A DNA stretch of 40,714 nt from an uncultured Selenomonadales bacterium (GTDB taxonomy: Bacteria; Bacillota; Negativicutes; Acidaminococcales; Acidaminococcaceae): contig ONAV01000043.1 of NCBI GenBank assembly GCA_900315925.1, positions 1 through 40,714 on the forward strand, written 5' to 3'. Below the pieces are notes generated by a model, which saw only the letters and a program-made list of their open reading frames with translations, searched no databases and was not told the origin of the DNA. Positions 8,689 through 15,422 of this stretch are shown one piece after another. Positions within the stretch are counted from its first letter, which is position 1. Every line of letters begins with the position of its first letter. Position numbers and translations under genes: made by a program.

Positions 8689-8856
8689 TTAGAAAAAGTA
8701 TTCGCAAAACCGTTCATGATTGCTATTCCATGGATTCATTCGCCTATGGCTTCGAAACTCGGGGCTTCGCCCCTCAAACAGTCTCGCCATAACGGCGAAT
8801 TTCACCTCATGGAATGTCGCAATCATTCCCGACGTTTTGCTCATATCTTTTCCTAA
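8689..8856. repeat. Type A intergenic hairpin repeat, copy 1
   Basis: This 168-base near-palindrome lies between tmk and holB. Its arms pair in successive blocks: outer TTAGAAAAAG with CTTTTCCTAA (one mismatch), ATGATTGC with GCAATCAT, ATTCCATG with CATGGAAT, ATTCGCC with GGCGAAT, TATGGC with GCCATA, and a terminal GGGGCTTCGCCCC hairpin. The apex from GCTTCGAAACTC to CAAACAGTCTCGCC is shared with copies 2 and 3. It ends 32 bases before the holB start. Confidence 0.85.
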
Positions 8857-8888
8857 CCAATATTTTTAAGCTTTCTTACAGGTGCACT

Positions 8889-9935
8889 ATGTTTGACCAA
8901 ATTGTAGGACATCAACAGAATAAAGAATTCCTGGCACGGTTCTTAAAACGGGAAGAACGGCCTCACGCGTTGTTGTTCTACGGACCGGAGGGAATCGGCA
9001 AATGCCTGCTGGCCAAAGAGTTTGCCAGAGCGTTTCTGTGCCTGGGTTCCTCACAGGGAGATAGGCCCTGCAATCACTGTGAAAGCTGCCGCCTGCTGAA
9101 CTTCGAAACCGGCAACTTCGCTCATCCGGATTACCTGTACTTTGACCCCATGACGGATGAGGAACAGGAAAAGAAAAAAACAAAAATTATTTCCGTGAGC
9201 CAGATTCGCAGTTTAATTAAACAGTCTGCCTTCGGTCCCACGTTGTCAAAACAAAAAATCTGTATTGTCAACGAAGCGGACACCATGAACACGGAAGCGG
9301 CCAATTCGCTGCTGAAACTGCTGGAGGAACCGCCGGACAAATGGTTCTTTATTCTGGTGGCTTCGTCGGTGAGCCGTCTCCTGCCCACCATTTTATCCCG
9401 GGTGATTCAGGTGCGGTTTACGCCGCTGTCTGTGCAGGAAACAAAAAAAGCATTACTGACTAAAGATATTCCCGAGGCCGAAGCGGACCTGCTGGCGCAT
9501 CTGTCTGATGGGTCGTTAGGACAGGCGCTCCGGTTCCGGGAAGAACGGATCATGGACTACCGCAATGCAGCCTTGAAGTTTGTAGCGGAGTTTCCTATGC
9601 AGGCGCCCATGACCTATCTGCTGAATGAAGATTATTTTTCTGATGTGATCCCCTCTTCCGGTGGCAATGAGCAACTGCAGCGTTTTGTGACAATGACGGT
9701 TTTGCTGTTGCGGGACTTGCTGTTTGTGAAGAGCGGGTTATCGAATCAGATTTTTAATATAGATGCGTTGCCTCAATTGCAGGCCATAGCAAAAAAATGG
9801 GATGAGAGAAGAATCCATCAGGCCTCGGAGGCGGCGCAGGAAGCAGCGGCAGCCGCAGTGCGGCGGGCCAACACCAAAAGTGTGTTGGACAATGTAACCT
9901 TTAAGATTAATGCATGCTGCGAAGGAAGATTGTAA
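8889..9935 (+). CDS. holB: DNA polymerase III subunit delta'
   Basis: This 348-residue AAA+ protein is a subunit of the clamp loader that places the sliding clamp on DNA. It shows the N-terminal FDQIVGHQQNKEFL segment, a Walker-A-like GPEGIGKCLLAKE, a zinc-binding cluster ending in CNHCESC (with an earlier Cys in AFLCLG), the NEADTMNTEAANSLLKLLEEPP Walker-B-like/SRC region and the PTILSRVIQ sensor segment. I used ATG 8889 (MFDQIVG), preceded by AGGTG; the longer frame starting at 8814 runs into the upstream repeat. Gene order tmk-holB-ricT matches other Firmicutes. Confidence 0.93.
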   Translation: MFDQIVGHQQNKEFLARFLKREERPHALLFYGPEGIGKCLLAKEFARAFLCLGSSQGDRPCNHCESCRLLNFETGNFAHPDYLYFDPMTDEEQEKKKTKIISVSQIRSLIKQSAFGPTLSKQKICIVNEADTMNTEAANSLLKLLEEPPDKWFFILVASSVSRLLPTILSRVIQVRFTPLSVQETKKALLTKDIPEAEADLLAHLSDGSLGQALRFREERIMDYRNAALKFVAEFPMQAPMTYLLNEDYFSDVIPSSGGNEQLQRFVTMTVLLLRDLLFVKSGLSNQIFNIDALPQLQAIAKKWDERRIHQASEAAQEAAAAAVRRANTKSVLDNVTFKINACCEGRL

Positions 9936-10060
9936 TAATATGATTTGAAAGATTTCTTTATTCCCGGCGGTCTGTCCTTTGGCAGAAAGGAGGCCGGTAG
10001 GAAAGAGTTCTTTCGTGAAGGTTTATGCCGCTGAATCCTGGCGGCGGAATGGAGGTTAGT

Positions 10061-12849: not shown

Positions 12850-12989
12850 AATATAAGGTGTAGATAAATTTTCATGTTAGAACTTTTTTCTGCACGATGA
12901 GATAAGCATTAGGAATTAAAGCGTTTTACAAAATTCAGGTAACAATTCTGCAAGGCAGACATACTATATAAAAGGAAGAAGGGTTTGTC

Positions 12990-15234
12990 ATGGAAAACAA
13001 AGAAAAGAAACCGTTTTTTATTACCACGCCGATTTATTATCCCAGTGAAAAACTGCACATCGGTCATGCTTACTGTACCACGGTGGCGGATGCCATTGCC
13101 CGCTATCACCGGGCCAAAGGGGAAGATGTTTTTTTCCTCACCGGCAGCGATGAGCATGGCCAGAAGATTCAGCGCAAAGCGGAAGATTTGGGTATTACGC
13201 CCATTGAATATGTAGATAAAATCGTGGCTACCTTCCAGAGCCTGTGGAAACGGCTGGAAGTTTCCAACAATGATTTTCTCCGCACCACCCAGGAGCGCCA
13301 CGAAAAAGTGGTGCAGGCCGTGATGCAGCAGATTTATGATAAAGGTGACATTTACAAGAAAAACTATGAAGGCTGGTACTGTGTGCCCTGCGAATCCTTC
13401 TGGACCGAGCATCAGCTGGTAGACGGCAACTGCCCTGACTGCGGCCGTCCCGTAGAAAAGATGCAGGAAGAAAGCTATTTCTTCAAGATGAGCAAGTATG
13501 CGGACCGCATGCTGCAATACATTGACGAGCATCCGGATTTTATCCAGCCGGTGGCCCGCCGCAACGAGATGATCAACTTTATCAAGCAGGGACTGGAAGA
13601 TTTGTGCGTAACCCGCACTTCCTTTGACTGGGGTATCAAGGCGCCCTTCGATCCCAAGCATGTAGTCTATGTAAAAATACTGGCCGGCAGATATCCATCT
13701 GGTGGGAAAGGAGATCGTGCGTTTCCATTCCATCATCTGGCCTATCATGCTGATGGCCATGGAAGAAGAAATCCCGAAAAAAGTGTATGGTCACGGCTGG
13801 CTGGTAGTGGACGGCACCAAGATGAGCAAGTCCATCGGCAACGTGGTAGACCCCAACGGCCTGATTGACGAATTCGGAGCAGACGCAATCCGTTATTTCC
13901 TGCTGCGGGAAATCAATCTGGGCAGTGATGGCAACTTCAGCCGTGACGCGCTGATCAACCGTATCAACGCAGACCTGGCCAACGATCTGGGCAACCTGCT
14001 GTACCGTACGGTCAGCATGGTGGAAAAATACCACGACGGCGAACTGAAAAACTGCCCGGCCGTAGCCCTGGATGTGGATACGGATCTGGTCAAACTGACA
14101 GAAGCCACACTGGTTTCGTATCAGGAACATATGGATAAACTGGAAATCAATGACGCCATCAAAGCGGTATGGAGTCTTGTAGCCAGCGCCAACAAATATA
14201 TTGATGACACGGCGCCCTGGAAGCTGGCCAAGGAACCGGCCGATGCCGACCGTCTGCATCTGGTGCTGTACAACCTGGCGGAAGTACTTCGCTATGTAGC
14301 TGTTATGATCGAGCCTTTCATTCCGGGAACTACGCCGGAAATCTTAAAACAGCTGGGACTGGAATGCAAAGAACAGAACCTGCTGGAAGATTTAACGTGG
14401 GGCGGTATTGCCGACGGCACCAAAGTAGTGAAGGGCGAACCGCTGTATCCGCGTATTGATGTGCTGCCGGACGGTCGTACCCTCATCGGCGCCACCAAAA
14501 AATATGCAGGCAAGGTGTACAATCCGGAAACCGGAAAACATGAAGAGTATCATCCGGAACCGGTCAAGGCAGCCAATAATAAAAAAGAGAAAAAGAATGA
14601 TGCTAAAAAAATCGATGCCTTAGCGGAAGCCCAGGCCAAGGCGGAAGAAGCCAAAGCCAAAGCCCTGGCGGCCAAGGAAGCGGCAGCGAAAAAAGCAACT
14701 TCGGCAGCGGACGCGGCCAGTGACGCAGTAGCGGCGGCGGGCGATGCAGCCAAAGCAGTAGGCGGCGCGGTTTTGGCGGCGGTGGCTTCGGCCCGTGCAC
14801 GGGTCAGCGCGGCGGCGGACGATGCGGTGCGCACGGCAACGGAAGTGAAGAACGCGGCCCTGGAAGCGGCGCGGGGCGGTGACGCGGCAAAATCTGCACC
14901 GGCAGCAGACGGTGAAATTACCATTGACGACTTTGCCAAGGTTGACCTGCGGGTAGCTAAAATCCTGTCTGCGGAACGGGTGCCTAAAACGGATAAGCTG
15001 ATGAAGATCCAGGTGCAGCTGGGCGAAGAAGAACGCACCATCGTTTCCGGCATTGCCCAGTATTATACACCGGAAGAACTGGTAGGCCGAAATGTTATCG
15101 TCATTAAGAATCTGAAGCCTACCAAACTGCGGGGCATTATGTCGTACGGCATGCTGCTGGCGGCTTCCGACGGGGAAGGAAATCTGGTGCTGGCGGACGC
15201 GCCCAATATTAAGAGCGGGAGCAAAGTGAAGTAA
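12990..15234 (+). pseudogene. metG: Methionyl-tRNA synthetase gene, broken by an internal deletion and frameshift
   Basis: The gene encodes methionyl-tRNA synthetase in two frames. The first part (from ATG 12990) has the HIGH motif in KLHIGHAY, the zinc knuckle CVPCESF...CPDCGRP and continues to HVVYV (ending at 13673). The next frame resumes at [18 protein letters not shown] (from 13675) and has [15 protein letters not shown], the anticodon domain, a long Ala/Lys-rich linker and a C-terminal EMAP/Trbp111-like tRNA-binding domain. Homologues have about 23 residues (WxDALxNYITALGYG and on) at the junction, so roughly 68 bases are missing. The lost segment includes the Trp and Tyr of the methionine pocket. 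Uncorrected, the first frame ends at 13868 after 292 residues. A sequencing or assembly error is the main alternative to a true pseudogene. Confidence 0.9.
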
Positions 15235-15257
15235 AAGATTAGAATAATAAAAATTGT

Positions 15258-15422
15258 GCGTGGCAAGATTTTCCAAAACTGTTTGCGTTTGCTATTTCAT
15301 GGGCTCATGCACCTGTGGCTGCGAAACTCGGGCTTCGCCCTCAAACAGTCTTGCCACGACGGTGCATTTCGTCTCATGAAATAACGCAAACGCTCACAAT
15401 GTTTTGTTCAATCTTGCCACGC
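15258..15422. repeat. Type A intergenic hairpin repeat, copy 3
   Basis: This 165-base copy lies between metG and tatD and ends 32 bases before the tatD start. Its outer arms GCGTGGCAAGATT and AATCTTGCCACGC pair perfectly. Compared with copies 1 and 2 the inner stem ATTCGCC/GGCGAAT has become ATGCACC/GGTGCAT with changes on both sides, and the apex is GGGCTTCGCCC. Confidence 0.85.

Follow-up and report, generated by a model that had tools for sequence, protein, structure and literature searches.

The ERIC repeat is an imperfect palindrome with a conserved centre, and the integron attC site is a recombination site that is recognised by its folded shape and whose arms are variable. According to the part of PMC2229807 that describes such repeats, ERIC, also called IRU or RU-1, is a 127-bp multi-copy repeat of enterobacteria resembling miniature inverted-repeat transposable elements (MITEs), and the Correia/NEMIS, RUP and Rickettsia palindromic elements are small mobile repeats with stem-loop structure; repeated stem-loop families were also surveyed in 40 genomes by Cozzuto et al. 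in 2008 (PMC2267715, in part). Here we analyze a 40,714-nt stretch of contig ONAV01000043.1 from an uncultured Selenomonadales bacterium (the window), in which an earlier note, made from the letters alone, had pointed out three intergenic hairpin repeats with covarying arms. These hairpins belong to a small repeat family whose copies are dispersed over the genomes of one rumen bacterial group, and we consider it probable, at roughly 0.6, that they represent a mobile MITE- or ERIC-like hairpin in which the apex is conserved and template switching renews the arms. The strongest new aspects, absent from the earlier note, are frequent in-place inversion and an apex that is shared across lineages.

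A genus-specific family of long intergenic hairpins

The element is a genus-specific palindromic repeat of about 165–215 bp placed between genes. Three full copies lie in the window in + orientation, at 8684-8861 (copy 1, outer arms 8689-8698 and 8847-8856), 11791-11968 (copy 2) and 15253-15427 (copy 3), and score 193.3, 196.7 and 174.9 bits, respectively, with a covariance model. Each is a single long imperfect hairpin, with RNA folding z-scores of −8.2, −7.9 and −10.5; for no copy did any of 200 shuffles do as well. The apical motif, which in copy 1 reads CGAAACTCG-loop-CTCAAACAGTC, lies at 8753-8783, 11860-11890 and 15322-15350 (+). All three copies of the earlier note were confirmed and every arm and inner-stem sequence it quoted was found in place; it overlooked a shortened fourth copy at 22930-22994 (+), in which the outer arms are closed by GCAAAACCGTACACCATGTTTTGC without the inner part (114 inner model positions absent; 42 bits, E = 1.3e-8 with the covariance model).

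An apex pattern of 15 bases, tolerating one mismatch, has 64 matches in the window's own genome (G000), 8–43 in each of ten further genomes of the genus, 2 in G052 and none in G050 and G053, the richest being G000 and G051 (64 and 43); its reversed control gave 0 in all 14 genus genomes. By blastn, copy 2 matched 11 of the 59 genomes of the family, comprising 11 of 14 in the genus and 0 of 45 elsewhere. The earlier note had proposed a covariance-model search of Negativicutes; such a model (R1), built from 58 copies, matched 12 of 300 genomes, namely the 11 genus genomes found by blastn and, weakly, G082 (E = 3e-5). The RsmI encoded beside the copies has its nearest named relatives in an uncultured Succiniclasticum metagenome-assembled genome (94%) and an Acidaminococcaceae one (91%), and from this likeness we take Succiniclasticum to be the nearest named relative of the host genus and refer to the Succiniclasticum family. 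As in MITEs, the copies are numerous and intergenic, judged by simple longest-open-reading-frame gene calls.

The note had not recognised the family, and neither did Rfam, which gave one tRNA alone for the whole window at gathering score and no match to copy 2 at E up to 5. Distant blastn of phage and plasmid collections with copy 2 gave no match, nor did any plasmid match a G072 hairpin. Of four pattern scans of viral contigs, two gave a single locus each (L238 and L276), which were judged by eye to be chance matches, and two gave none. No published account of this repeat family or its apex letters was found in the open-licence literature.

The arms covary throughout the family

For an alignment of the family (A1), 66 copies were extracted (3 at locus ends left out), of which 60 were distinct and 58 were used, the two halves of one interrupted copy being left out. 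At least one kept two-sided change is seen in 33 of the 47 consensus pairs, so that the covariation noted between three copies is true family-wide. A covariation test, of the kind that had also been proposed, yields 288 kept two-sided cells, compared with a shuffle mean of 95, and 0 of 500 shuffles reached the observed value of any of five covariation measures. Specifically, 93.5% of cells are paired vs 84% in shuffles, and pairing falls to 38–48% when the 3′ partner is slid by 1–3 columns. Covariation above controls, as found here, is a property of structured RNAs that is shared with non-RNA elements.

The outer arms (helix 1; family consensus GGAAAAGAC/CTTTTCC) are the most variable part of A1 yet still paired, with two-sided changes in 9 of 9 pairs and 81.8% of cells paired. 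The element is conserved at its centre and variable at its ends, the opposite of the conservation pattern of typical transposons. The ends also vary between subfamilies, although one subfamily in G051 shares ends about 215 bp apart. We observed that a young subfamily has spread within G051 (loci L047, L221-L223, L227, L228, L231, L233 and L235), with similarity spanning a unit of about 215 bp.

Orthologous copies are frequently inverted in place

Grouping copies by flanking sequence gave 34 groups; 147 copies were kept, 136 of them full length, and 135 entered the comparison of ortholog pairs. Among 96 such pairs, 56 have the same orientation and 40 the opposite one. Reciprocal-best support is present for 61 of the 96, and 23 of these 61 are inverted, so that at least one inversion is found at 14 of the 27 sites with such support. 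The inverted reciprocal-best pairs have identities of about 0.83–0.98, most above 0.91, whereas unrelated copies in different genomes have a mean identity of 0.822 with a 99th percentile of 0.898.

The core has moved along with the inversion. Across the outermost 8 stem pairs of inverted pairs, the inverted and non-inverted alignments fit about equally (0.163 and 0.173 vs 0.183 and 0.163 differences per site), whereas across the next five the inverted alignment fits better (0.192 vs 0.331). The outer stem differs at 0.16–0.19 per site in inverted pairs and at 0.06–0.11 in same-orientation pairs, with the core about equal, and the inversion breakpoints therefore apparently lie within the outer arms.

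These pairs also give the tempo of arm change, taken from 29 of 56 ortholog pairs with identity of at least 0.90, each copy used once and six doubtful consensus pairs taken out of the fold. Kept double changes number 9 vs 1.75 expected under independence in same-orientation ortholog pairs (P about 1e-4) and 9 vs 3.5 in inverted ones (P about 0.01), and kept doubles per single change increase with divergence in the same way in paralogs and orthologs. The arms are thus compensated in place above chance, yet inefficiently, at a tempo that fits occasional arm-to-arm copying, selection during movement, or both.

Orthologous sites are filled, shortened or empty

The full copies are hosted by a gene run that reads, by Pfam, tmk - holB-like - psp1 - methyltransferase - rsmI - metG - tatD, in gaps of 221–232 bp. 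Copy 1 lies between the thymidylate kinase gene (end 8657) and a DNA polymerase III delta-prime-like gene (likely start 8890), copy 2 between the methyltransferase gene (end 11786) and rsmI (start 12010), and copy 3 between metG (end 15234) and tatD (likely start about 15456). These three gaps, along with the one following tatD, were extracted from 13 other genus genomes wherever this was possible, and the gaps at five further sites from 8 genomes.

Gap 1, in + orientation in its own genome, is inverted in G044, G046, G047, G051 and G054, holds a short remnant in G055 and measures 12–30 bp in G049, G056 and G052; flank grouping places copies in G048 and G045 as well. Gap 2 is filled in G000, G047 and G054, spans 17–32 bp without the element in G044, G046 and G055 and 47–91 bp without it in the three distant genomes G050, G052 and G053, and contains a longer sequence in G049 and G045. 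Gap 3 is filled in G000, G047, G051 and G056, and in G054, where it is cut by a contig end; it shrinks to 1–11 bp in G044, G045, G046, G049 and G055, and to a remnant-like 28 bp in G048. Conversely, the gap after tatD lacks the element in the window's genome, while G045, G049 (inverted) and G056 have full copies there and G044, G046, G047, G048, G051 and G055 apparent remnants. Shortening often occurs through loss of the apex. At site C51a, G046 has an arm fragment, and the shortened hairpins of G044, G054 and G055 differ from one another.

Orthologous sites that are filled in some genomes and empty in others, whether through insertion or loss, are what a MITE-like element would show, and an element maintained because it serves a role where it stands would not be expected to vary in this way. 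As a possible target-site duplication, TTTTATTA by eye flanks both sides of the element in gap 2 of G054, a single site, with other sites unclear. A separate observation concerns the psp1|methyltransferase gap of G056:C73 (L154), whose 236 bp consist largely of tandem GGTTTGCGCAGAGAAAT-like units.

The apex is shared across lineages

The apical motif, CGAAACTC / CTCARACAGTC, is asymmetric and conserved within the family; in the A1 + strand consensus it is unpaired, and in the fold of the minus strand a part of it is paired, with wobble. The pattern TCGAAACTCG-N(2-20)-CTCARACAGTC was found in 13 of 380 Negativicutes genomes, comprising 10 of the genus, G072 and G087 (family f18) and G082 (f10), and it under-counts because it demands a T before CGAAACTCG (G048 has 0, vs 12 by the 15-base pattern). 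A slightly wider pattern matched 2 of 398 Bacillota genomes (G000 and G422), so the apex is rare outside the class; reversed-pattern controls gave 0.

With a G087 copy as query, 13, 9 and 3 places were found in G072, G087 and G082, some of them partial, and all three places in G082 match over the apex only. G072 and G087 contain long hairpins with the apex of the Succiniclasticum family on unrelated arms, and these arms again differ on both sides between copies. The inner loop is left TTGC-T-A / right TNACGCAA in the Succiniclasticum family and left TTAC-T-AAAA / right TTTTTAACGTAAG in the G072/G087 hairpins, which we read, on unscored likeness, as similar asymmetric loops. G422, from another Bacillota family, carries three copies of a different long hairpin with the same apex. 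The apical motif looks like the part that is selected.

A second hairpin-rich sequence of ~120 nt (ATGGCTCGTGCGCAACGCAT...) splits the apex at about the same point in three copies (L003:165-450 in G000:C59, L237:534-821 in G051:C19, and L218 near 678-845 in G051:C4), and the apex of L185 (G046:C7) carries a different insert. At nine loci (L288, L291, L294, L297 and L298 in G072; L287, L290, L293 and L296 in G087) the hairpin has a second small hairpin ahead of it at a similar distance, e.g. TACTTTTTTCTTGATAAAAAAGTACC or AAAAAATCAAG, resembling two-hairpin units. Finally, L319:973-1125 matches G049:C74:14323-14476 at 89%, with the adjoining query 1-948 mapping elsewhere on that contig, and is perhaps a further repeat.

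Gene context, strand and rival explanations

Covariation this strong, together with a conserved apex, would also be expected if the transcribed hairpin were an mRNA processing, stability or regulatory structure, with compensation reflecting purifying selection at each site. The strand evidence partly agrees: for 56 of 58 copies, the complementary strand gives the more stable fold (mean −84.8 vs −75.0 kcal/mol), and single mismatches on the + strand are A-C more often than G-T (51 vs 30, p = 0.026), particularly in the core (35 vs 14, p = 0.004), where they would be wobble pairs on the minus strand. Without one highly variable pair, the counts become 27:13 in the core (p = 0.04) and 43:29 overall (p = 0.12), and the outer arms have no strand bias (16:16). 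We take this as a weak indication that a folded minus strand matters in the core, as RNA or single-stranded DNA. Given the conserved apex and the weak mismatch bias, some selection on the folded element is likely. ERIC, a comparable repeat, affects mRNA stability in one orientation, as stated in part of PMC2229807. Nevertheless, at 71 distinct sites with genes called on both sides by a simple longest-open-reading-frame rule, same-direction gaps hold the element with the genes 16 times and against them 21 times (p = 0.51), hence with no orientation preference; orthologous copies are inverted, which means that no single strand is read consistently; and orthologous sites have copies missing or shortened. 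We therefore regard a selected RNA element as unlikely. The same 71 sites comprise 25 convergent and 9 divergent gaps (p = 0.009; an earlier count of 60 copies including orthologs gave 18 and 7), and the left flank is 41% A and the right flank 42% T, compared with about 24–26% at 100–200 nt. Both would suit mobile bidirectional terminators, palindromic, A-rich before, T-rich after and active either way, as would several copies that by eye consist of a GC stem followed by a T-run, but avoidance of promoters would equally yield the convergent excess. Moreover, the exit-side T-run is not significantly longer (4.26 vs 3.85, p = 0.11), copies lie about as far from gene 3′ ends (median 43) as from 5′ ends (median 52), and among the 37 same-direction gaps the stop codon is the closer one in only 20. 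A terminator scan of 8000-16500 of the window, covering loops of 3–8 only, found 13 vs a shuffle mean of 11.4, no excess, and in genus relatives lacking the element, the gene runs that the window copies interrupt have gaps of 1–32 bp. We give this terminator role no better odds than the RNA element.

Far less probable is that the outer arms are pre-existing host terminators into whose loop the element inserted. They do vary by site, and some resemble terminator stems by eye, but they have a common family consensus, and in nearer relatives the element-free gaps, of just 1–32 bp, hold no hairpin that we could see, which largely refutes the idea at the three window sites. Similarly improbable is a REP-type repeat moved by a RAYT (Y1) transposase. 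Intergenic position, palindromic form and high copy number would fit, but of the 14 genus genomes, the 8 with Y1_Tnp (PF01797) do not include G000 or G051, which have the most apex matches, whereas G052 has one Y1_Tnp match and only 2 apex matches. With completeness at only 88% for G000 and 98% for G051, RAYT is rejected as the mobiliser unless its gene lies in the missing sequence of both. Separately, G044 has 31 Y1_Tnp matches, many being fragmentary and lying where a contig starts or ends, which suggests a recently spread IS200-type element breaking the assembly. An inverted repeat at 28963-29024 of the window, with 29-nt arms (76% complementary) and a T-run, is probably an ordinary terminator.

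Discussion

We propose that the arms of this mobile hairpin probably stay matched in large part through DNA copying errors that let one arm rewrite the other. The hairpin would prompt replication to switch template between its arms, and such switches would invert the element and overwrite one arm from the other, leaving the two complementary as their sequence turns over. During movement, a putative enzyme would recognise the folded apex, perhaps on the strand complementary to the + strand of the window, which would keep the apex fixed and leave the arm sequence free. Template switching at inverted repeats homogenises arms and inverts the spacer (PMC8604942, in part), and it creates and maintains hairpins with compensatory changes (PMC8794818, in part). 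The combination of in-place inversion and arm homogenisation is, in the relevant part of PMC8604942, the signature of template switching, and the element fits it. By these partial accounts (PMC8604942, PMC8794818) one process yields both effects, and two-sided changes alone are thus no proof of selection. The earlier note had taken them as a sign of a selected fold rather than a mobile element with fixed ends; the covariation and the non-fixed ends stand, but the contrast between selection and mobility does not, as sites are full, shortened or empty, the element has no orientation preference, and copies are inverted between species.

Several points weigh against this explanation. Only patterns that fit template switching were seen, and switching itself was not observed. 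One-sided stem changes dominate between orthologs (same-orientation pairs, 61 single and 10 double; inverted pairs, 75 and 14), indicating that arm correction is inefficient. No mobilising enzyme was found in a search limited to PF01797, nor a parent transposon, for which no dedicated search went beyond that domain, and a target-site duplication is unclear across the sites compared. In addition, 35 of the 96 ortholog pairs are not reciprocal best, so some shared sites, e.g. C32a, may hold independent insertions. The genus genomes are multi-contig assemblies in which some inversions could be assembly errors, a worry that is tempered by the longest perfect arm run being about 31 bp (by eye).

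A bolder reading, which we hold only tentatively, is that these elements are mobile DNA recognised by shape: an asymmetric apex on a long hairpin whose arms are irrelevant and continually rewritten, with a putative enzyme that moves or flips folded single strands. The same apex would then be used by repeat families of dissimilar appearance, both within Negativicutes and in one or more further Bacillota families. The shared motif is a direct handle for finding whatever recognises it. More generally, textbook covariation alongside in-place inversion makes this family a natural case that can separate selection-driven from template-switching compensatory change, and RNA-gene inference based on covariation could mistake such a family for a structured RNA.

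Among known systems, the Succiniclasticum family is of the same general kind as the stem-loop families of Cozzuto et al., whose species table, in the part examined, names no Negativicutes and whose main text does not mention compensatory change or covariation (PMC2267715). REP/BIME repeats with their RAYT are also high-copy intergenic palindromes, but the present element is much longer and does not correlate with RAYT. With integron attC sites the likeness is an analogy of workings, and we do not claim membership. In having stem-loop structure, the family resembles the Correia/NEMIS, RUP and Rickettsia palindromic elements treated in part of PMC2229807; RUP, by the same account, has a TA target and terminal repeats that match an insertion sequence, whereas here neither conserved ends nor a clear target duplication was found and the centre is conserved instead. 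The comparison with ERIC is one of description, not sequence, between repeats of unrelated host groups. ERIC orientation is crucial to its mRNA effect (PMC2229807, in part), whereas the Succiniclasticum family is oriented at random to genes and is distinguished by its length of about 165–215 bp, by arms that are hypervariable but complementary, and by inversion in place.

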